64,000 nucleotides of DNA, taken from positions 310,001 to 374,000 of the forward strand of contig WHVD01000062.1 in the NCBI GenBank assembly GCA_015178975.1. The letters run 5' to 3'. This document shows positions 2,100-56,975 of this stretch, in pieces. The position numbers and the translations under genes were made by a program. Numbering within the stretch: the stretch's first letter is position 1; the number at the start of each line of letters is the position of its first letter. The notes beneath the pieces were generated by a model. It did not search any database, was not told the origin of the DNA, and saw only the letters and a list, made by a program, of their open reading frames with translations. The stretch comes from Hysterangium stoloniferum. Lineage: Eukaryota; Basidiomycota; Agaricomycetes; Hysterangiales; Hysterangiaceae.

Positions 2100-2350
2100 T
2101 ATTAAAGGCATAGAAAAGAATTGACCCAGCCTGGGATTGAACCAAGGACCTCCTGGCTTTATATGCAGATGCTCTTAACCACTGAGCTACTGGACCTATA
2201 GTCTAGTATTATATGATGGATTATATATACATATATATAAGGACTTATGATGCCAACTTGTGCTCTTATAACAGTTTATATAACTGATGGCAAGCCTGGG
2301 TCTTATAACAGTCTGTCACATATAGATATTGTATTTTCCCATTTCTAACA
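2100..2350 (-). mobile_element. Solo LTR of TRIM-A, tRNA-like bearing
   Basis: It is 251 bp, the same length as the other LTR-A copies. It ends in TCTAACA on the right, while the left tip has TATTA instead of TGTTA. The tRNA-like part lies at 2122-2196 on the minus strand. The right flank is gypsy-D pol. No matching target duplication is seen on the left, so this copy was probably rearranged after insertion. Confidence 0.85.
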
Positions 2351-3546: not shown

Positions 3547-3884
3547 TGTTAAAACTGCCTCCACTGTCTCCAAAACCTTCTGGAACCTTCTAGAACCTTC
3601 TAGAAGCTTCCAGCATGTTCCAGGGTATTCCCAGTTCATTTCCCATGACAGCTGTCAATCAGCTGTCACTTTGTATTCCAGCTGTCAATCAGCTGTCAAT
3701 TTCCATTCAAGCTGTCAATCAGCTGTCACTTCTGACAGCTGTCAACCAGCTGTCACTTATGACAGCTGACAAGCCTACTGATGTATAACATATATAAGCT
3801 TGTAGTTAGTGACCTGAATAGCAACAACTTTCCTCAGACTTGTGTGTGTCACGTGTCACAGTAAGTCACAGGTCACTTTTAACA
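3547..3884 (+). mobile_element. LTR-B, 5' LTR of plus-strand copia-1
   Basis: This LTR is 338 bp, TGTTAAAACTG to CTTTTAACA, followed directly by the primer-binding site. The preceding five bases are TACAC. The matching right-hand duplication is lost because the element is truncated at 7363. Confidence 0.9.
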
Positions 3885-3897
3885 GGTTATGGGCCCC
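3885..3897 (+). other. Primer-binding site complementary to the anticodon region of initiator tRNA-Met
   Basis: GGTTATGGGCCCC starts at the first base after the LTR. Its complement, GGGGCCCATAACC, contains the GGGCCCATAACC anticodon stem-loop known from eukaryotic initiator tRNA-Met (anticodon CAT). Drosophila copia is known to prime from a 5' half of that tRNA in the same way. The same 13 bases occur in copia-2 and TRIM-A. Confidence 0.8.
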
Positions 3898-4126
3898 GCG
3901 CTCTAAGCGCTCTAGTACAGTATAACGTTTTGCAAACTCGCTTCTTTTGAGTAAGTTTCAGCCTATACTTTTATATTCCCCTGCCAGGCCCAGCCTTATT
4001 GCTGTTGCTAGTAGGGAGGAACTTGTACGCCACTAAGGCTGAGTTTCCCTCGAGACTACCGTCTGGACCTCGAGTTAAATACCTTTTTTCTCAACTTCTT
4101 TGCGAGTTTGCTCTGTGTATACTACA

Positions 4127-7100
4127 ATGTCATCTTCCATCCCCCAATTCCCTAAACTCAACTCTCATAACTACAACACCTGGTCTGGTGAGATGCAGGC
4201 TTGGCTTCGTGCCCAGGGTGTCTGGCGCATTGTTGAGGCCACCTCCATTGCACCTGCACTATCCTCATCTCCCACAGAGGCCCAGCAAACTGCATTTGAT
4301 GCTTGGGCTCTCAAGTCAGACAAAGCAGCAGGTTGGATGTACTTGAGTGTTGAGGATGATCAAAAGATTCATCTTAAAGGGATTGAGGGTGATCCGGTCA
4401 AGATGTGGACCAGTCTGTGTGATGTACACTTGCAGAAGCGCCCTGGCATGCGCTTCAATGCGTATGATGATCTTTTCTCCATCAGAAAGGAAGAGAATGA
4501 GAATTTGCAAACTCTGATGAATCGGGTGGATCTAGCCATCCGTGCCATCCAGGATCTGCGCCCATTGAATTTTGATCTTGCCAAACTTGATGAGGAACTT
4601 GCATCAATGGCAATGATTAGGGCACTTCCTGAGCAGTTTGACAACTTTGCCTCTTCTCTCCTTCTGATGGACAAGCTGGACAAGGCTACTATCCAACAAG
4701 CTTTTGTCACAGAAGAGTCACAACGCCGTCATCGGGCTTCACAAGCTCCTGCAGTTGCATCTGCACTTACTGTAAAGGGCAATGCATCCACTGCATTTCT
4801 CAAATGTACTTTCTGCTCTATGACCAACCATACTATGGACAAGTGTCATCGCTTCATCAAGATGCAGCAGGAAGCACAGGAGAGTGTCCGTACCAATCGT
4901 ACCAAAGGAAAGAAGGCAAACAGGACTCAGGAGACAATGTCTCAGGACAATGTTGAATCTGCTGGAAATGCACGTCCTTTCTTCTCATCCAATTCTCCCA
5001 CCCTGCAGAATGATTCTGACTTTGATTGGCTTGCAGACACAGGGGCCAGCAGTCATATGACTCCCCATTGTCACTGGCTGCGTAACTACACAGCATTATG
5101 CGTACCAATCAAGTTAGCGGATCATAGTATTATTTACTCTGCAGGAGTTGGATCACTGGTTTTTAACCCAGTTGTAAATGGAAAGGAATTGCGATCTGTT
5201 GAGTTTACAAGAGTCTTGCATGTACCACAATTGCGTAGTAATCTACTATCTTGTCTTTACCTTACAAAGTGTTGTTAAAGGCATAGAAAAGAATTGACCC
5301 AGCCTGGGATTGAACCAAGGACCTCCTGGCTTTATATGCAGGTGCTCTTAACCACTGAGCTACTGGACCTATAGTCTAGTATTATATGATGGATTATATA
5401 TACACATATATAAGGACTTATGTTGCCAACTTGTGCTCTTATAACAGTTTATATAACTGATGGCAAACCTGGGTCTTATAACAGTCTGTCACATATAGAT
5501 ATTGTATTTTCCCATTTCTAACACTTCCCCTGAAATCAATATCTAATCTATACCCTATGCAGCACACCAAGCTCACGGGGCCCATAACCTGTTAAAGGCA
5601 TAAAAAAGAATTGACCCAGCCTGGGATTGAACCAAGGACCTCCTGGCTTTATATGCAGGTGCTCTTAACCACTGAGCTACTGGACCTATAGTCTAGTATT
5701 ATATGATGGATTATATATACATATATATAAGGACTTGTGATGCCAACTTGTGCTCTTATAACAGCTTATATAACTGATGGCAAACCTGGGTCTTATAACA
5801 GTCTGTCACATATAGATATTGTATTTTCCCATTTCTAACAAGTGTAAAGGTCTACTCATTGAGATTGACCAAACAACCATGCGTTTCAAACGCTCTGGAC
5901 AGACTATGTTTACAGCCAGAGTTACTGCACAGAATGCAGGTATCCTCAATGGTGTCACTGCACCTATTATTGAGCAAGCTGGTGCTGTCTCCACCCTTCC
6001 CTTTGATATCAATCTCTGGCATCGCCGTCTTGGACACCACAGCTATGCTGATGTCCAGAAGATGATCAGAGAAGGATTGGTGGTTGGCTTAAACCTTGAC
6101 TCAAAGGAACAGCCTGATCCCATCTGTGAACCTTGCCTTGCTGGCAAAATGACTGCTAGTCCATTCCCTATCTCACCAAGTCATTCTCAGACACCACTTG
6201 AACTTATTCATAGTGATCTACATGGACCACTTCCTGTGCAAACAACTGAGGGTTATCACTACTGGATAACCTTTATTGATGATTGCACCAAGTTGCGAGC
6301 TGTTCTGTTCTTGAAACGGAAGAGTGATGCATTTGAAGCATTCAGGAGATACAAAGCTTATGCTGAGAATCTTCTTGGTTGCAAGGTCAAAGCTCTGCAG
6401 GATGACAAAGGGGGGGAGTATATGTCAAATGCCTTTATCAAGTTTACAGATGAATGTGGAATAGTACGCCGCCATACTACTCGCAATCGCCCTCAACAGA
6501 ATGGAGTTGCAGAAAGAGCCAATCGCACTATGGCTGATCATGTCACTGCCATGATGCATGAGGCGCGTATGCCTGCTTCTTTCTGGAACCATGCTGTGAC
6601 ATCTTATGTTTATGTCTGGAACCGTCTGCCTACTGCACCATTACCTAAAACTACACCCTATGAGCAATGGTACAAGCAGAAACCAGATGTAAGCAACTTG
6701 CGAGTATGGGGATGTACTGCCTATGTTTACATTCAAAGGGACAAAAGGAAGTCACTTCAGTCACACATGGAGAAATGCCTCTTTCTAGGCTATCCTGTGG
6801 GATACAAAGGTTGGCAATTCTACAACCCTGTTACAAAGAAGTTTATCATCTCTGAACGGGCTGTATTTGATGAACGCCACTTTCCTGGTCTATCTACTAC
6901 TGGACCAATGCCTAATATCAGGCTTGTCCCAAATACACCACACTCTAACATTTCTTCATTTGTGCCAGAAGTACAGGGGGATAATGATATTTCTGTTCCT
7001 CTTACTCATATTCCTGCACCTCCTGCTCATATTCCTATACCTCCTGCTCATGTTCCTGCACTTCCTGAACCACCTTTGCCTCCTCTTGGGGTTGAAGAAC

Positions 7101-7363: not shown

Positions 7364-7931
7364 TGTTAGAAATGGGAAAATACAATATCTATATGTGACA
7401 GACTGTTATAAGACCCAGGTTTGCCATCAGTTATATAAACTGTTATAAGAGCACAAGTTGGCAACATAAGTCCTTATATATATGTATATATAATCCATCA
7501 TATAATACTAGACTATAGGTCCAGTAGCTCAGTGGTTAAGAGCACCTGCATATAAAGCCAGGAGGTCCTTGGTTCAATCCCAGGCTGGGTCAATTCTTTT
7601 CTATGCCTTTAACAGGTTATGGGCCCCGTGAGCTTGGTGCGCTGCATAGGGTATAGACTAGATATTGATTTCAGGGGAAGTGTTAGAAATGGGAAAATAC
7701 AATATCTATATGTGACAGACTGTTATAAGACCCAGGTTTGCCATCAGTTATATAAACTGTTATAAGAGCACAAGTTGGCAACATAAGTCCTTATATATAT
7801 GTATATATAATCCATCATATAATACTAGACTATAGGTCCAGTAGCTCAGTGGTTAAGAGCACCTGCATATAAAGCCAGGAGGTCCTTGGTTCAATCCCAG
7901 GCTGGGTCAATTCTTTTCTATGCCTTTAACA
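7364..7931 (+). mobile_element. Complete TRIM-A, second copy, at a rearrangement junction
   Basis: LTRs are 7364-7614 and 7681-7931, and the core is 7615-7680 with the primer site at 7615-7627 and a purine tract ending at 7680. Length and layout are identical to the copy at 5273-5840. Unlike that copy, the flanks do not match (TAGAG left, GCTTG right). The left flank is copia-1 on the plus strand and the right flank is copia-1 gag on the minus strand. The element therefore marks a recombination joint and not a simple insertion. Confidence 0.92.
7518..7592 (+). other. tRNA-like sequence with pol III A and B boxes inside the TRIM-A LTR
   Basis: It is 75 nt and can fold as a cloverleaf. The acceptor GGTCCAG pairs with CTGGGTC (two G-U pairs), the D arm is GCTC/GAGC, and the T arm is CTTGG/CCAGG around TTCAATC. 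The anticodon arm CCTGC/GCCAGG needs one bulged C, and the loop would read ATATAAA. The A box is TAGCTCAGTGG and the B box GGTTCAATCCC. A run of four T follows within 10 nt and could end a pol III transcript. The second LTR has the same sequence at 7835-7909. With the imperfect anticodon stem, I regard it as tRNA-derived, not a working translation tRNA. Confidence 0.8.
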
Positions 7932-24558: not shown

Positions 24559-24835
24559 TGTTAAAATGTAGAAAGTGAATGGCTAGGCTGGGAATTGAAT
24601 CCAGGGTCTTCTGCATATATAGCAAGGGTGTTACCACTACACCACTTGACCTTGGGTAGATCTGGGCTTACACTGTCATGAGTGTACAAGATCAATTCTG
24701 ACAATACTTCAACTTGACTTTCCTTTGACTGACTTTCCTTTGACAATATTTGACTTGATTTCCAATTCAACTTCTCAGATTGACATCATTCATGATTTCA
24801 TTCTTCTTATGTCATATAATAGTCATTGATTAACA
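24559..24835 (-). mobile_element. Probable LTR-like element with tRNA-like sequence (third family)
   Basis: On the minus strand it runs from TGTTAATCAATGAC to CATTTTAACA. A tRNA-like stretch (24580-24651, minus) lies close to the 3' end: GGTGTAGTGG as A box and GATTCAATTCC as B box, in the same place as in the LTR at 47053-47296. Flanks (TATGT, TTGAA) do not match, so the left boundary or integrity is uncertain. The acceptor stem has at least two mismatches. Confidence 0.5.
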
Positions 24836-28640: not shown

Positions 28641-29128
28641 GAACAGCTGTAATACATAACCTTATTGATTATACATATATGTGTGAGAGGTACCCCTTTC
28701 TGGAGAACATGATTTGAATGGTAGGGGGAGGATCTATAGCGGGTGGCTGGGTTTATGGAGTCACAGTATTAGGATAATACTAACAAGGCTACCAAAACAC
28801 AAAAAGAAACAAGAGAGTGTGTGCAAGATAAGGAATAGGAGAATGGAAGTTCTAATGACTTGAGAATATCACACTTGTATTTAGTGGAAATCCTAAGAGA
28901 TTGAAACTGGGGTCTAACTACTGTATGTATATACAGTAAGTACATCTTAGGGTATTTATACATACTAAAGGGAAAACTAAATAAAGTTCTTATTGAAGGT
29001 TCAAATCTTGAAGGAAATTAAAATAAAGTTTACATTTGACACATGTATTGTCATGTGATTGACATTGTGTGGCCGCAAAACAATGTTTCAAGCCATTTCA
29101 TATTTGTGTGACATCACGTGGCACACAC
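28641..29128. other. Unassigned spacer before the minisatellite
   Basis: No gene or repeat boundary is seen. A TA run lies just upstream at about 28506-28520. Confidence 0.3.
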
Positions 29129-30251
29129 GATGCATGCACACTGTGACGATGCATGCACACTGTGACGATGCATGCACACTGTGACGATGCATGCACACTG
29201 TGACGATGCATGCACACTGTGACGATGCATGCACACTGTGACGATGCATGCACACTGTGACGATGCATGCACACTGTGACGATGCATGCACACTGTGACG
29301 ATGCATGCACACTGTGACGATGCATGCACACTGTGACGATGCATGCACACTGTGACGATGCATGCACACTGTGACGATGCATGCACACTGTGACGATGCA
29401 TGCACACTGTGACGATGCATGCACACTGTGACGATGCATGCACACTGTGACGATGCATGCACACTGTGACGATGCATGCACACTGTGACGATGCATGCAC
29501 ACTGTGACGATGCATGCACACTGTGACGATGCATGCACACTGTGACGATGCATGCACACTGTGACGATGCATGCACACTGTGACGATGCATGCACACTGT
29601 GACGATGCATGCACACTGTGACGATGCATGCACACTGTGACGATGCATGCACACTGTGACGATGCATGCACACTGTGACGATGCATGCACACTGTGACGA
29701 TGCATGCACACTGTGACGATGCATGCACACTGTGACGATGCATGCACACTGTGACGATGCATGCACACTGTGACGATGCATGTACACTGTGACTTGTGAT
29801 GCATGCACACTGTGACTTGTGATGCATGCACACTGTGACTTGTGATGCATGCACACTGTGACTTGTGATGCATGCACACTGTGACTTGTAATGCATGCAC
29901 ACTGTGACTTGTGATGCATGCACACTGTGACTTGTGATGCATGCACACTGTGACTTGTGATGCATGCACACTGTGACTTGTGATGCATGCACACTGTGAC
30001 TTGTGATGCATGCACACTGTGACTTGTGATGCATGCACACTGTGACTTGTGATGCATGCACACTGTGACTTGTGATGCATGCACACTGTGACTTGTGATG
30101 CATGCACACTGTGACTTGTGATGCATGCACACTGTGACTTGTGATGCATGCACACTGTGACTTGTGATGCATGCACACTGTGACTTGTGATGCATGCACA
30201 CTGTGACTTGTGATGCATGCACACTTGTGATGCATGCATACTGTGACTCAT
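29129..30251. repeat. Two-domain minisatellite (19-bp array, then 23-bp array)
   Basis: Domain 1 (29129-29774) holds exactly 34 head-to-tail units of GATGCATGCACACTGTGAC with no length change. Domain 2 (29775-30211) holds 19 units in which TTGT is added, giving 23 bp; its first unit has one base change and one later unit has GTAATG. Two irregular units follow to about 30251. Each unit contains the palindrome TGCATGCA. Because 19 and 23 are not multiples of three and the units lack stops, all three minus-strand frames stay open; those frames are artefacts. Confidence 0.97.
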
Positions 30252-47052: not shown

Positions 47053-47296
47053 TGTTAGATTATATAATACCAACCATTGTTCCAACTGGGACCATATGGT
47101 GTACAGCTCTGAGTTCAGTGTGTATATGATCTAATAGGAATGGCGCTTAGGGTTATATCCTTAAGTACAGTGTAAGACCAAACCTACCCAAGGTCAGATG
47201 GTGTAGTGGTTAACACCTTCATTATGTAATCGAGAGATCCTGGGTTCAATCCCCAGTCTGGCTATTCATTTTCTACATTACTCATGTTTTCTAACA
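47053..47296 (+). mobile_element. Solo LTR of a second tRNA-bearing family (244 bp)
   Basis: It runs TGTTAGATTATATAATACC to GTTTTCTAACA with a perfect duplication CCTAC (47048-47052, 47297-47301). It has no obvious identity with LTR-A outside the tips and the tRNA-like part, yet it has the same plan: a tRNA-like segment followed by a tail of about 30 bp. Confidence 0.88.
47192..47264 (+). other. tRNA-like sequence inside the 47-kb LTR
   Basis: It is 73 nt. The acceptor GGTCAGA pairs with TCTGGCT (two G-U pairs), the D arm is GTGT/ACAC, and the T arm CTGGG/CCCAG encloses TTCAATC. The A box is TGGTGTAGTGG and the B box GGTTCAATCCC. The anticodon stem is poor, so a translation role is unlikely. 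Confidence 0.75.
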
Positions 47297-47769: not shown

Positions 47770-47850
47770 TGTTAAAAGTGACCTGTGACTTACTGTGACA
47801 CGTGACACACACAAGTCTGAGGAAAGTTGTTACTATTCAGGTCACTAACT

Positions 47851-48064
47851 TGTTAAAGGCATAGAAAAGAATTGACCCATTCTGGGATTGAACCAAGGAC
47901 CTCCTGGCTTTATATGCAGGTGCTCTTAACCACTGAGCTACTGGACCTATAGTCTAGTATTATATGATGGATTATATATACATATATATAAGGACTTATG
48001 TTGCCAACTTGTGCTCTTATAACAGTTTATAACATATAGATATTGTATTTTCCCATTTCTAACA
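47851..48064 (-). mobile_element. Solo LTR-A, 214-bp deletion form, in the copia-1 3' LTR
   Basis: Perfect duplication TAACT (47846-47850, 48065-48069). About 37 bp are missing between the TTATAACA words. The tRNA-like part (47873-47947, minus) is retained with one change (CCCATTC). It is among the youngest insertions, as it lies in the recent copia-1. Confidence 0.93.
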
Positions 48065-48438
48065 TAACTACAAGCTTATATATGTTATACATCAGTAGGC
48101 TTGTCAGCTGTCATAAGTGACAGCTGGTTGACAGCTGGTTGACAGCTGTCATAAGTGACAGCTGATTGACAGCTTGAATGAAAACTGACAGCTGATTGAC
48201 AGCTGGAATACAAAGTGACAGCTGATTGACAGCTGTCATGGGAAATGAACTGGGAATACCCTGGAACATGCTGGAAGCTTCTAGAAGGTTCCAGAAGGTT
48301 CCAGAAGGTTTTGGAGACAGTGGAGGCAGTTTTAACAGACCCCCCTGATCTCACATGTCTCCAAAGAAAAAGAAACAGAGAGAGAGAGAGAGAGAGAGAC
48401 TTTGCTAAACTACAGAGAGTAAGAAAGAAAACAAGAAA

Positions 48439-51400
48439 CTAAGTCCTTATACCCATTCCATCACGGCAAAATTGAACCTTGGGAGTAGATAGACGCTTGG
48501 TTAGAATATCTGCAATTTGTTCTGCAGTAGGAATATAGGAAGGAGCAATACACTTGGCATTTACAGCATCCCTAAGCCAATAGTAGCGCAGGTCAAGATG
48601 TTTCATCCTTCCATGATGCTCAGGATTCTTAGCAACACTGATGGCAGACTGGTTGTCAATGTGTAGAGTAGAGGGTTGATCAACTTGGTAGCCAAATTCA
48701 CCTAGGATTTGCCGCATCCAGGCAATCTCCTTCCCAGCTTCTACAGCAGAGACAAATTCTGCTTCAGTTGTAGAAAGTGTGACAATACTTTGCAGTTTAC
48801 TACTCCAGCCAATAGCACCTCCAGCCATCATAGTCACATAACACCCAGTGGATCTTCCAGAATCAATACAATCACCATGAGCAGCATCAGTGTATGTGGT
48901 GAATAATTCAGAGCCACATTTACCAGAGTAATGCAACTTGTAATCCAGTGTACTTTTTAGGTATCTGAACAAGTGCTTCACTGCTGTCCAATGCTTTGGT
49001 CCAGGATTGCCATTAAAACGTGCCAAGTAGGACACAGTATAAGCAATATCTGGACGGGTCATAGTAGCCAGGTATTGTAAAGACCCAACAGCACTGAGAT
49101 AAGGAACACTACGCATGAAATCCACCTCTGCAGCATTCTTAGGACTCATTTCTTTGGAAAGAGATGTACCAGGTGTCATAGGTGTGAGAACTGGATGACA
49201 GTCAGACATGTTATAACGCTCAAGCATGTTGAGAATAAACTGTCGCTGATCAAGAGTAAGGAGACGCTTAGAGCGATCTCTGCCAACTCCCACACCAAGT
49301 AAATAAACAGTGGGTCCAAGATCACGGCATTTGAAATGCAGGGACAATTGCTTGACAGCTTTGTCAATGGCAAGAGTGGACTTGGATGCAAATGTAATAT
49401 CATCAATGTAAATGGGTACAAAGATCTTCACCTCTCCATTTGAATAAATGTAAACAGAGGTATCAGATTCAATTCGTTTGAACTCCATTTCAGTAAGTGC
49501 ACCATGTAATTTGATGTTCCATTGACGAGATCCCTGCTTGAGACCATAAAGTGATTTCAAGAGTCTGAGAACCTTATTAGGACCTCCTTGATGGAAGCCT
49601 TCAGGTTGTCTCATATAGATTGTCTCATCAAGGTCACCATGGGTGAAAGCAGCAGAAATGTCAACAGAGCGCAAGTCCATGTCTTCAATGGCAGCTAGGG
49701 CCAGAATCAAACGCAGAGTGGCAGGTCTAAAAGTAGGTGCAAACACTTCATTGTAGTCAATACCAGGACGTTGTGAGTATCCTTTGGCAACAAGACGAGC
49801 TTTATAACGCTCAATGGTGCCATCTGCATTGTGTTTGACTTTAAACACCCAACCCGAACCAATTGCCTTTGCACCAACTGGGAGGTCAACAAGTTCCCAT
49901 GTCTTGTTTTCTACCAGTGTATTGTACTCTGCATTTATAGCCTCTTGCCATTTATCTGCATCATCACCTTTCATAGCCTGCTTGTAGTTTTGTGGATCAG
50001 CAGTTGAAGCTGTTCCAACAAACTGTACTTCCTCATAATCAATGTCCTCATCATCATCTTCAGCTAGAGCTGGAGCTGGTTGTACCTTCCACCATTCACC
50101 AGGTTGCTTTGGAACACGCTGAGAGCGACGAAGCTGTGGTTCTGGTGCAGGTGGAGGAGGTAGTTGAATGGGTTCAGGAAGTGCAGGAATCTGAGCAGGA
50201 GGTGCAGGAATATAAGCAGGAGGTGCAGGAATATGAGTAGGAGGGACAGAAATATCATTATCCTCCTCTACTTCTGGCACAAATAAAGGAATGTCAGAGT
50301 TTGGTATATTTGGGAAAAGCCTAATATTAGGCATTGGTCCAGTAGTAGATAGACCAGGAAAGTGGCGTTCATCAAATACAGCCCGTTCAGAGATGATAAA
50401 CTTCTTTGTAACAGGGTTGTAGAATTGCCAACCTTTGTATCCCACAGGATAGCCTAGAAAGAGGCATTTCTCCATGTGTGACTGAAGTGACTTCCTTTTG
50501 TCCTTTTGAATGTAAACATAGGCAGTACACCCCCACACTCGCAAGTTGCTCACATCTGGTTTCTGCTTGTACCATTGCTCATAGGGTGTAGTTTTAGGTA
50601 ATGGTGCAGTAGGCAGACGATTCCATACATAGACATAAGATGCCACAGCATGATTCCAGAATGAGGCAGGCATACGCGCTTCATGCATCATGGCAGTGAC
50701 ATGATCAGCCAAGGTACGATTGGCTCGTTCTGCAACTCCATTCTGTTGAGGGCGATTGCGAGTAGTATGACGGCGTGCTATTCCACATTCATCTGTAAAC
50801 TTGATGAAAGCATTTGACATGTATTCACTCCCTTTGTCATCCTGCAGAGCTTTGACCTTGCAACCCAGAAGATTCTCAGCATAAGCTTTGTATCTCCTGA
50901 ATGCTTCAAATGCATCACTCTTCCGTTTTAAGAACAGAACAGCTCGCAACTTGGTGCAATCATCAATGAAGGTTATCCAGTAGTGATAACCCTCAGTTGT
51001 TTGCACAGGGAGTGGTCCATGTAGATCACTATGAATAACCTCAAGTGGTGTCTGAGATTGACTTGGTGAGGTAGGAAATGGATTGGCAGTCATTTTGCCA
51101 GCAAGGCAAGGTTCACAGATAGGGTCAGGTTGTTCCTTTGAGTCAAGGTTTAAGCCAACCACCAATCCTTCTCTGATCATCTTCTGGACATCAGCATAGC
51201 TGTGATGTCCAAGACGGCGATGCCAGAGATTGATATCAAAGGGAAGAGTGGAGGCAGCACCAGCTTGCTCAATAATAGGTGCAGTGGCACCATTTAGGAT
51301 GCCTGCATTCTGTGCAGTAACTCTGGCTGTAAACAAAGTCTGGCCAGAGAGTTTGAAATGCATGGTTGTTCGATCAATGTGTATGAGTAGTCCTTTGTGT

Positions 51401-51978
51401 CTTGTGAGATAAAGACAAGACAATAGGTTACTACGCAGTTGTGGTACATGCAAAACTCTTGTAAGCTCCACAGATCGCAATTTCCTTCCATTTATAACTG
51501 GGTTGAATACCACAGAACCAACTTCTGCAGAGTAGATAATAGTATGATCTGCTAACTTGATTGGTACACATAATGGTGTGTAGTTACGCAGCCAATGACT
51601 ATGAGGAGTCATATGACTACTAGCACCTGTATCAGCAAGCCAATCATAGTCAGAACCATTCTGCAGGGTGGAGGAATCGGATGAGGAGAAAGCAAGTGCA
51701 TTTCCAGTATATTCAACATTGTTCTGAGACATTGTCTTCTGAGGCCTATTTGGCTTTTTCTTCCCTTTAGCACGATTGGTAAGGACACTCTCCTGTACTT
51801 CCTGCTGCTTCTTGATGAAGCGATGACACTTGTCCATAGTATGGTTGGTCATGGAGCAGAAAGCACATTTGAGAAATGCAGTGGGTGCATTGCCCTGAGA
51901 CATTGTCTCCTGAGTGCTGTTTGCCTTCTTCCCTTTAGTCTGATTGACTTTAGGGAATTGGGGAATGGAAGATGGCAT
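48439..51978 (-). CDS. copia-1 pol polyprotein, intact frame, gag capsid part deleted
   Basis: One frame of 1,179 codons runs from the ATG at 51978. After ten gag residues (MPSSIPQFPK) it jumps to the gag tail (QTKGKKANS). A CCHC knuckle (CAFCSMTNHTMDKC), protease (DTGASSHM) and integrase zinc region (WHRRLGHHSY to CEPC) follow. The integrase core has D in HSDLHG, D in QDDKGSEY and E in NGVAERANR. RT (VDISAAFTHGDLDETIYM, IYIDDITFAS) and RNase H (TYTDAAHGD, EAEFVSAVE, DNQSAIS) complete it. Compared with the gag at 4127, about 190 capsid codons are missing and part of the tail is repeated. Enzymes look complete; particle formation would need gag from another copy. An open stretch upstream of 51978 lacks an ATG. 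Confidence 0.93.
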   Translation of the reverse strand: MPSSIPQFPKVNQTKGKKANSTQETMSQGNAPTAFLKCAFCSMTNHTMDKCHRFIKKQQEVQESVLTNRAKGKKKPNRPQKTMSQNNVEYTGNALAFSSSDSSTLQNGSDYDWLADTGASSHMTPHSHWLRNYTPLCVPIKLADHTIIYSAEVGSVVFNPVINGRKLRSVELTRVLHVPQLRSNLLSCLYLTRHKGLLIHIDRTTMHFKLSGQTLFTARVTAQNAGILNGATAPIIEQAGAASTLPFDINLWHRRLGHHSYADVQKMIREGLVVGLNLDSKEQPDPICEPCLAGKMTANPFPTSPSQSQTPLEVIHSDLHGPLPVQTTEGYHYWITFIDDCTKLRAVLFLKRKSDAFEAFRRYKAYAENLLGCKVKALQDDKGSEYMSNAFIKFTDECGIARRHTTRNRPQQNGVAERANRTLADHVTAMMHEARMPASFWNHAVASYVYVWNRLPTAPLPKTTPYEQWYKQKPDVSNLRVWGCTAYVYIQKDKRKSLQSHMEKCLFLGYPVGYKGWQFYNPVTKKFIISERAVFDERHFPGLSTTGPMPNIRLFPNIPNSDIPLFVPEVEEDNDISVPPTHIPAPPAYIPAPPAQIPALPEPIQLPPPPAPEPQLRRSQRVPKQPGEWWKVQPAPALAEDDDEDIDYEEVQFVGTASTADPQNYKQAMKGDDADKWQEAINAEYNTLVENKTWELVDLPVGAKAIGSGWVFKVKHNADGTIERYKARLVAKGYSQRPGIDYNEVFAPTFRPATLRLILALAAIEDMDLRSVDISAAFTHGDLDETIYMRQPEGFHQGGPNKVLRLLKSLYGLKQGSRQWNIKLHGALTEMEFKRIESDTSVYIYSNGEVKIFVPIYIDDITFASKSTLAIDKAVKQLSLHFKCRDLGPTVYLLGVGVGRDRSKRLLTLDQRQFILNMLERYNMSDCHPVLTPMTPGTSLSKEMSPKNAAEVDFMRSVPYLSAVGSLQYLATMTRPDIAYTVSYLARFNGNPGPKHWTAVKHLFRYLKSTLDYKLHYSGKCGSELFTTYTDAAHGDCIDSGRSTGCYVTMMAGGAIGWSSKLQSIVTLSTTEAEFVSAVEAGKEIAWMRQILGEFGYQVDQPSTLHIDNQSAISVAKNPEHHGRMKHLDLRYYWLRDAVNAKCIAPSYIPTAEQIADILTKRLSTPKVQFCRDGMGIRT

Positions 51979-52573
51979 TGTAGTATAGACGCAGCAAACT
52001 CGCAAAGAAGTTGAGAAAAAAGGTATTTAACTCGAGGTCCAGACGGTAGTCTCGAGGGAAACTCAGCCTTAGTGGCGTACAAGTTCCTCCCTACTAGCAA
52101 CAGCAATAAGGCTGGGCCTGGCAGGGGAATATAAAGTATACGCTGAAACTTACTCAAAAGAAGTGAGTTTGCAAAACGTTATACAGTACTAGAGCGCTTA
52201 GAGCGCGGGGCCCATAACCTGTTAAAAGTGACCTGTGACTTACTGTGACACGTGACACACACAAGTCTGAGGAAAGTTGTTACTATTCAGGTCACTAACT
52301 ACAAGCTTATATATGTTATACATCAGTAGGCTTGTCAGCTGTCATAAGTGACAGCTGGTTGACAGCTGGTTGACAGCTGTCATAAGTGACAGCTGATTGA
52401 CAGCTTGAATGGAAACTGACAGCTGATTGACAGCTGGAATACAAAGTGACAGCTGATTGACAGCTGTCATGGGAAATGAACTGGGAATACCCTGGAACAT
52501 GCTGGAAGCTTCTAGAAGGTTCTAGAAGGTTCCAGAAGGTTTTGGAGACAGTGGAGGCAGTTTTAACATGTAT

Positions 52574-55038: not shown

Positions 55039-55289
55039 TGTTAGAAATGGGAAAATACAATATCTATATGTGACAGACTGTTATAAGACCCAGGTTTGCC
55101 ATCAGTTATATAAACTGTTATAAGAGCACAAGTTGGCATCATAAGTCCATATATATATGTATATATAATCCATCATATAATACTAGACTATAGGTCCAGT
55201 AGCTCAGTGGTTAAGAGCACCTGCATATAAAGCCAGGAGGTCCTTGGTTCAATCCCAGGCTGGGTCAATTCTTTTCTATGCCTTTAACA
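55039..55289 (+). mobile_element. Solo LTR-A (251 bp) in gypsy-D RT
   Basis: Perfect duplication CTAGC (55034-55038, 55290-55294). tRNA-like part 55193-55267. Confidence 0.95.
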
Positions 55290-56724: not shown

Positions 56725-56975
56725 TGTTAAAGGCATAGAAAAGAATTGACCCAGCCTGGGATTGAACCAAGGACCTCCTGGCTTTATATGCAGGTGCTCT
56801 TAACCACTGAGCTACTGGACCTATAGTCTAGTATTATATGATGGATTATATATACATATATATAAGGACTTGTGTTGCCAACTTGTGCTCTTATAACAGT
56901 TTATATAACTGATGGCAAGCCTGGGTCTTATAACAGTCTGTCACATATAGATATTGTATTTTCCCATTTCTAACA
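56725..56975 (-). mobile_element. Solo LTR-A (251 bp) in gypsy-D RNase H
   Basis: Perfect duplication GATAT (56720-56724, 56976-56980). tRNA-like part 56747-56821 on the minus strand. Confidence 0.95.

Follow-up and report, generated by a model that had tools for sequence, protein, structure and literature searches.

A Helenus-type miniature retrotransposon of Hysterangium stoloniferum with tRNA-like segments in its LTRs and hybrid insertions with a co-resident copia element

How is an element of 568 bp that codes for nothing transcribed, and which proteins move it? The question is raised by a miniature LTR retrotransposon, here called F1, in a window of 64,000 nucleotides of the Hysterangium stoloniferum genome (contig WHVD01000062.1, positions 310,001 to 374,000). 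An earlier note on this DNA had proposed that the LTRs carry a tRNA-like RNA polymerase III (pol III) promoter, that the family is a fungal counterpart of the plant Cassandra elements and that copia proteins mobilise it. Our reading is that F1 is, with good probability, a Helenus-type TRIM which keeps a tRNA-derived pol III promoter in its LTRs and whose RNA would enter copia particles, be primed by initiator tRNA-Met (iMet) and be integrated by copia.

The window holds the two complete elements and five LTR-only copies that the earlier note had counted (Table 1). Each complete element consists of two 251-bp LTRs around a 66-bp core, and the two are 98.8% identical over 568 bp; the LTRs of the minus-strand copy differ from each other at 5 sites and those of the focal copy are identical. 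The core is, as described, a primer site and a purine tract. With a length below 1000 bp, two LTRs, no coding sequence, a primer site and a purine tract, F1 has the features of a TRIM, and its LTRs, primer site and 5-bp duplications set it apart from a SINE. Perfect 5-bp target duplications, claimed for most insertions, were found at five of the seven in the window; the focal copy (flanks TAGAG and GCTTG) and the solo LTR at 2100-2350 have none. The focal copy thus has identical LTRs yet differing flanks, the left one copia sequence and the right one an inverted repeat of 3547-4678, which suggests a rearrangement at the element. In three F1 LTRs the terminal CA is replaced by TA, namely in the one at 2100-2350 and in two elsewhere (L119, L131). 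The window also contains a long tandem repeat with shifts of ~19 bases (29127-30248) within long minus-strand open frames.

Table 1. Features of the window (positions are those of the 64,000-nucleotide stretch; complementarity to tRNA was read by eye).
Feature	Positions	Strand	Called by
F1 element, focal copy, LTR-core-LTR, 568 bp, no target duplication	7364..7931	+	
5' LTR of focal F1 copy, identical to 3' LTR	7364..7614	+	
tRNA-like segment, 5' LTR of focal copy, 75 nt	7518..7592	+	ARAGORN, Rfam
TTTT run after tRNA-like segment, candidate weak pol III terminator	7597..7600	+	
Primer-binding site GGTTATGGGCCCCG of focal copy, 14 nt complementary to host initiator tRNA-Met anticodon region	7615..7628	+	by eye
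Polypurine tract AGGGGAAG, end of 66-bp core	7673..7680	+	
3' LTR of focal F1 copy	7681..7931	+	
tRNA-like segment, 3' LTR of focal copy	7835..7909	+	ARAGORN, Rfam
Second full F1 element, target duplication AGTGT	5273..5840	-	
F1 solo LTR, terminal CA to TA, no target duplication	2100..2350	-	
F1 solo LTR, target duplication TGCAA	41969..42219	+	
F1 solo LTR, 37 bp missing internally, target duplication TAACT, inserted in copia LTR	47851..48064	-	
F1 solo LTR, target duplication CTAGC	55039..55289	+	
F1 solo LTR, target duplication GATAT	56725..56975	-	
F2 solo LTR, second tRNA-bearing TRIM family, target duplication CCTAC	47053..47296	+	
tRNA-like segment of F2	47192..47264	+	ARAGORN, Rfam
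Relic related to F2/F4, 80% to F2 over 113 columns, tRNA-like segment 24580-24651	24565..24676	-	
Copia element of the family inferred to mobilise F1, target duplication TGTAT	47770..52568	-	
5' LTR (349 bp) of window copia, then primer site GGTTATGGGCCCCGCGC	52220..52568	-	
Copia pol open frame, 1188 aa, integrase and reverse transcriptase domains	48442..52005	-	

ARAGORN called a 75-nt tRNA-Tyr(ata) in all nine F1 LTRs of the window, and Rfam matched its tRNA model in the same nine (seven at 48.6 bits, one at 46.1 and one at 35.7, threshold 29), which bears out the tRNA-like part noted in each 251-bp LTR. An A box TAGCTCAGTGG and a B box GGTTCAATCCC are present as claimed, together with the TTTT, which starts five bases past the tRNA-like end. 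Both boxes fit the Helenus pattern (TRGCY..YGG, GGTTC) and are unchanged between the main subfamily, F1a, and a copy (L110) of F1b, a subfamily of F1 with ~82% LTR identity. At gathering thresholds, tRNA was the only Rfam match in the window, and a 5S rRNA-derived LTR segment as in Cassandra was not found. The parent of the tRNA-like segment was not found among the ten tRNA loci shorter than 90 nt that we compared, the best agreeing at 53 of 75 positions; another search for parent candidates scored 63 of 5384. Folding of the segment was no better than that of shuffled sequences in F1 (z -0.30) and F1b (z +0.61), and the values for two other families, F2 and F4, were -1.11 and -2.36. We rejected the idea that the LTR tRNA is the element's own primer: by eye, the primer site matches iMet, not the LTR tRNA.

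TRIMs with tRNA-derived LTRs have been named Helenus (Kojima 2024, PMC10886601). The element is real, and on its sequence features F1 is a Helenus-type family of a kind already published; the suggestion in the earlier note that the kind was undescribed is not supported, and that of a tRNA-based counterpart of Cassandra in a fungus is supported. As described by Kojima, Helenus elements carry tRNA-derived sequence in both LTRs and count rusts and Agaricomycetes among their hosts; the fungal families have 5-bp duplications and primer sites that mostly lie in a tRNA anticodon loop, iMet being dominant, with some at the iMet 3' end, and a copia partnership has been proposed for them (PMC10886601). 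F1 agrees in its tRNA in both LTRs, its boxes, primer site, purine tract and 5-bp duplications and in the iMet anticodon loop as primer region, a placement made on the published feature description rather than against a consensus sequence. The genome resembles the published cases in harbouring several such families, and tandem arrays, which F1 also forms, were noted for one fish family (PMC10886601). Mobilisation by copia, a further feature proposed for fungal Helenus, is indicated by the genomic hybrids described below, and it is here that the evidence differs in kind: the Helenus partner was derived from primer-site similarity and one shared internal region, whereas ours comes from hybrids with target duplications.

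Other known systems share part of this anatomy. Cassandra, a TRIM about as large as F1, likewise has a pol III-type internal promoter in its LTRs and forms tandem LTR-core arrays (PMC7215508, PMC10853983); unlike F1, it occurs in plants, carries 5S rRNA instead of tRNA, and has autonomous partners that are called unknown in the published account (PMC7215508). Drosophila copia and Ty5 (cited in PMC10886601) use tRNA anticodon-region priming as F1 does, but are autonomous.

We then considered F1 across the 111 Mb of the assembly (554 contigs). The first 26 bases of the LTR gave 225 matches at up to 3 mismatches and the reversed pattern gave 0, so F1 is not a product of chance. With the whole 568 bp as query, and 40 of 345 candidates scored, there were at least 60 matches, 52 of them full-length; within tandem arrays these rows overlap. 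Two core types, of 66 and 67 bp, are flanked by LTRs of the same family. Of 123 near-full LTRs, 120 are 97-100% identical to the focal LTR, and by this measure the copies are young. Perfect 5-bp duplications flank 22/33 full and 14/23 solo copies in 72 fetched stretches; as these were chosen mainly for full copies or core junctions, the duplication and hybrid ratios taken from them are not genome frequencies. The same stretches contain seven tandem chains with at least two and up to six cores, four of them with perfect outer duplications; one, on C4, has its core types in the order A-B-A. Arrays with up to six cores and perfect outer duplications were seen at L104 (C534:47720-50000), L092, L003 and L101, and similar LTR-core arrays are known from Cassandra and other LTR elements (PMC7215508, PMC11899658). 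Two exact-pattern scans of viral contigs found no F1.

If the tRNA-like segment serves as a promoter, its boxes should be kept better than the rest of the LTR, a comparison that the earlier note had called for. We compared the focal LTR (F1a) with the F1b copy L110. The tRNA 5' part with the A box (26/26) and the 3' part with the B box (31/31) are identical. Agreement falls to 13 of 17 sites (one gap) in the anticodon arm and to 109 of 150 (four gaps) in the upstream LTR; in the trailer that includes the T-run, 21 of 22 sites agree. The difference between the promoter parts (57/57) and the upstream LTR is significant (Fisher's exact test, p 4e-7), as is that between the promoter parts and the anticodon arm (p 0.002). 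In three further relatives, L111, L112 and L123, identity is likewise higher in the tRNA part (93-95%) than in the upstream LTR (68-75%). In 121 of the 123 near-full LTRs (two at ~85% identity were left out), singletons number 15 in the tRNA part and 29 upstream, against 4 and 41 fixed changes between subfamilies (Fisher p 0.0045); the ratio of shared to singleton variants, 2:17 in the tRNA and 15:29 upstream, does not differ significantly (p 0.068). The boxes thus show the opposite of random decay, the outcome that the earlier note had named as refuting its proposal. This pattern, which leans mainly on the one split between F1a and F1b, fits selection for a pol III promoter and not for a tRNA. 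The polymerase that transcribes F1 is most likely pol III.

F1 is not the only tRNA-bearing TRIM of this genome. The family F2 is represented in the window by a solo LTR that sits inside a copia reading frame. It is a TRIM of ~656 bp. In each of six full copies that were fetched the two LTRs are identical, a sign of recent movement, and five of the six have perfect duplications. Its primer site TGGTAGCAACTCCA is, by eye, complementary over 14 nt to the iMet 3' end including CCA. The family F4 (copies L147 and L148) is a TRIM of 411-413 bp with a 128-bp LTR whose tRNA begins at base 35, and the two copies read by eye have their primer site at the iMet anticodon and the 5-bp duplications GGGAC and CAGTT. 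F2 and F4 have an internal block in common (by eye), yet make the opposite choice of iMet primer region, a primer switch between relatives to judge by their sequences. These families were traced by scoring 40 of 313 candidates for F1b, 40 of 423 for F2 and 40 of 458 for F4. Their Rfam tRNA scores are 49.0 bits (F2), 49.2 (F4) and 45.4 (F1b), and 11 of the 13 loci given to Rfam tRNA scoring matched, all except the degraded L069 and the F1b copy L117. Five A-box bases are missing from both LTRs of L117, which means either that its A box was already incomplete when it moved or that the bases were lost in its own reverse transcription. At L123 (C113), L124 (C509), L120 and L112, cores of the F1b lineage lie behind LTR-like ends that are neither F1 nor window-type copia, and the same foreign end at C113 and C509 may mark hybrids with another copia.

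A pol III promoter in the LTR poses a difficulty of its own. The TTTT run stands between the tRNA-like segment and the core with its primer site, so a pol III transcript that ended at the first TTTT would be useless for transposition, and this is where it would end if T4 terminates in this fungus. T4 follows the tRNA in F1, F2, F4 and most F1b copies read; among older F1 relatives, L111 and L151 have T7 at this position and L114 is without the T4. In 29 of the 33 other tRNA loci of the genome the first T-run is T5 or longer (11 of 14 when repeated tRNA-Lys loci are left out), T4 coming first in the remaining four, among them one of three iMet genes. In the full comparison, related tRNA-Lys loci are taken as independent and each family enters once, by its common form; without Lys, T4 occurs in 4/4 families and 3/14 other loci (p 0.011). 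The tRNA-Lys(CTT) loci, which have an intron, are many (L047, L052-L054, L058-L061, L065 and L066 on C112; L045, L048, L062 and L067 on C68), and some lie in degenerate repeats ~425 bp apart, a tRNA expansion separate from F1. T-runs are not depleted over the transcribed span relative to single-base shuffles (F1 1 vs 1.8 expected, F2 2 vs 2.7, F4 2 vs 1.9). For budding yeast, A5-A6 has been reported as the shortest run that terminates, with leakage even at T6 (PMC4937561). The T4 of these families, set beside the T5 or longer runs of most tRNA loci and the yeast minimum, suggests a leaky stop, which pol III would run through in the first LTR and obey in the second. Transcription would begin in the 5' LTR, at the tRNA-like segment or shortly before it, pass the short TTTT there, cross the core and halt at the TTTT of the 3' LTR, leaving an RNA with a predicted repeat R of ~80-85 nt at both ends. 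For Helenus we found no discussion of terminators; in the main text of PMC10886601, words in 'terminat' occur twice, on Cassandra.

The position of the TTTT before the core also speaks for a different account, in which pol II makes the F1 RNA from a TATA-like stretch ~25-45 bp upstream of the tRNA-like segment, and the tRNA is kept for processing of the RNA 5' or 3' end, for TFIIIC-bound chromatin or for entry into particles. A suitable stretch, TATATATATGTATATATAA, does lie just upstream of the segment, and the partner copia presumably uses pol II, since ARAGORN and Rfam call no tRNA-like segment in its LTRs. However, between the subfamilies the stretch is not specially conserved (15/20 sites against 109/150 in the whole upstream LTR), F4 has 34 bp of LTR before its tRNA, and the invariant parts are precisely those with the A and B boxes. 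We regard transcription by pol II as unlikely, though it is the strongest competitor of a pol III promoter.

As to the proteins that move F1, a candidate lies in the window itself. The host iMet gene reads GCGCGGGGCCCATAACCCC around its anticodon, and the sequence that follows the 5' LTR of the window copia is complementary to this region over 17 nt (by eye), in keeping with the 14 nt of F1. Across LTR end and primer site, F1 and copia have 21 bp in common; at the purine tract there is no such stretch. Among 120 listed of the 1209 relatives of the window's copia protein, the three that have a species name come from the Agaricomycetes Sparassis, Taiwanofungus and Agrocybe. No gag domain was found in the long frame of the window copia, and its internal region is ~585 bp shorter than that of the copia at C35:906369-911437; this copy may itself be non-autonomous.

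The stronger evidence comes from insertions that are part copia and part F1. Searching for a copia LTR end joined to the primer site and crossing the hits with F1 purine-tract sites, we found 18 junctions where a copia 5' LTR leads into an F1 core: 16 by the crossed search and two from fetched loci, namely C514:408905 and C544, whose primer site has one extra base. A recount over all 84 purine-tract sites gave the same 18 (17 by pattern, plus C514). Twelve are simple hybrids (copia LTR, F1 core, F1 LTR) of which both ends were read, and nine of these have perfect 5-bp duplications: CTGTC, CAATC, CGCGT, TCTTT, TTTAT, CCAGG, TTACA, GATTT and TGGAT, where CAATC and TTTAT were read by eye and TTTAT requires a CA-to-TA change at the terminus. 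The other three (C514:299669, C543:251048 and C68) have none, and the remaining six junctions are truncated or within longer composites. In eight of the nine hybrids with duplications, the copia LTRs are 349, 338, 325 or 319 bp long with 2-16 pairwise differences and the F1 cores are of both types, which points to repeated events and not to one copy that spread.

The reverse junction, from an F1 LTR into the copia leader, occurs in six places. One, at C35:906369-911437, is a reciprocal hybrid that ends in a copia LTR and is bordered at either end by AGAGA, in surroundings of simple GA-rich sequence, with ~2.7 kb of its inside unread. Another, on C2, is a composite of F1 LTR, copia leader, copia 3' end, copia LTR, F1 core and F1 LTR between two TTTTT, with ~1.5 kb of its inside unread. 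The others lie on C14 and C256 and, within composites, at C259 and C35:1081398. A copia LTR after an F1 purine tract was found at none of the 84 sites, one of which, on C135, is itself unrelated sequence.

In the second (plus-strand) transfer of LTR elements it is the primer-site sequence that pairs. Copia plus-strand strong-stop DNA could thus pair with F1 minus-strand DNA to yield a copia 5' LTR, an F1 core and an F1 3' LTR, and the reverse pairing, of F1 strong-stop on copia, would yield the reciprocal hybrid. Integrated hybrids of both types were found, joined only at the primer site; made by such transfer, they would need both cDNAs in one particle. The hybrids and the common primer site can be read from the DNA directly; we infer from them the shared particles, with which strand transfer is in good agreement, and a copia of the window type is the likely mobiliser of F1. 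The mobilisation proposed in the earlier note is thereby backed by hybrid insertions with target duplications and a shared primer site. F1 RNA would enter the particles of the co-resident copia, the 5' half of iMet would prime it at the shared site, and copia integrase would insert the product with 5-bp duplications.

Could the hybrids have arisen between DNA copies instead, by recombination at the 21 bp common to both elements, which would leave shared particles unproven? That stretch would guide DNA recombination as well as strand transfer, and the purine tract has no counterpart of it; this genome also contains tandem arrays and mixed composites, and elsewhere such arrays are often ascribed to recombination (PMC1950507, PMC7215508). 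To make a simple hybrid after insertion, however, recombination would have to act twice, the second time where the outer ends of the LTRs have only ~5 bp in common. Matching 5-bp duplications enclose one copia and one F1 LTR in nine simple hybrids and in the reciprocal one, and four copia LTR lengths and two core types occur in eight of the nine. We consider recombination improbable as the source of these insertions.

Composites by strand transfer and recombination of co-packaged elements have precedents (PMC1950507, PMC5668417). Those of the Triticeae (Sabot and Schulman 2007, PMC1950507) likewise have target duplications and were attributed to abnormal strand transfer between co-packaged RNAs; they fuse similar elements at R, with identical outer LTRs, whereas the F1/copia hybrids combine unrelated LTRs through a common primer site, and do so in both directions. 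In the literature searched, which was covered in part, we found no such hybrids for a TRIM. What the present analysis adds is the evidence on the partner from hybrids, the distinction between constraint on a promoter and constraint on a tRNA, and the terminator idea. Swapping of LTRs between autonomous and non-autonomous retrotransposons was reportedly the subject of a soybean study by Du et al. in 2010, going by its title, and this may limit the novelty of the hybrids.

A more detailed scenario joins the two lines of evidence, and we put it forward tentatively, as possible rather than expected. The weak T4 would let pol III pass the first LTR and stop in the second, the RNA would enter the particles of one copia, and plus-strand strong-stop DNA would often jump at the shared half-tRNA primer site, giving hybrids in both directions, including a copia with a pol III promoter in its 5' LTR.

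Two further explanations are very improbable. The view of F1 as chiefly a disperser of functional tRNA genes might be argued from the full tRNAs called by ARAGORN and Rfam and from the few Helenus families that could encode a tRNA according to Kojima (PMC10886601), but we rejected it, as the anticodon arm is the part that drifts, the F1a anticodon is ATA, that of the F1b copy L110 is incomplete and neither subfamily folds better than shuffles. That a SINE or tRNA gene fell by chance into one founder LTR and is unconstrained baggage would suit the youth of the copies (120 of 123 near-full LTRs close to the focal one), but hardly the strong constraint between subfamilies or the tRNAs that F2 and F4 also keep.

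For TRIMs with tRNA or 5S sequences in their LTRs, the autonomous partner has so far been a guess or unknown; hybrids with target duplications point to one from the genome sequence alone, and wherever Helenus or Cassandra occurs in a long-read genome the approach could be tried. The comparison of F1a with F1b separates constraint on a promoter from constraint on a tRNA, and the T4 idea makes the puzzle of how pol III gets past its own terminator directly testable. For H. stoloniferum itself, more than 200 F1 LTRs together with F2 and F4 would inflate tRNA gene counts.
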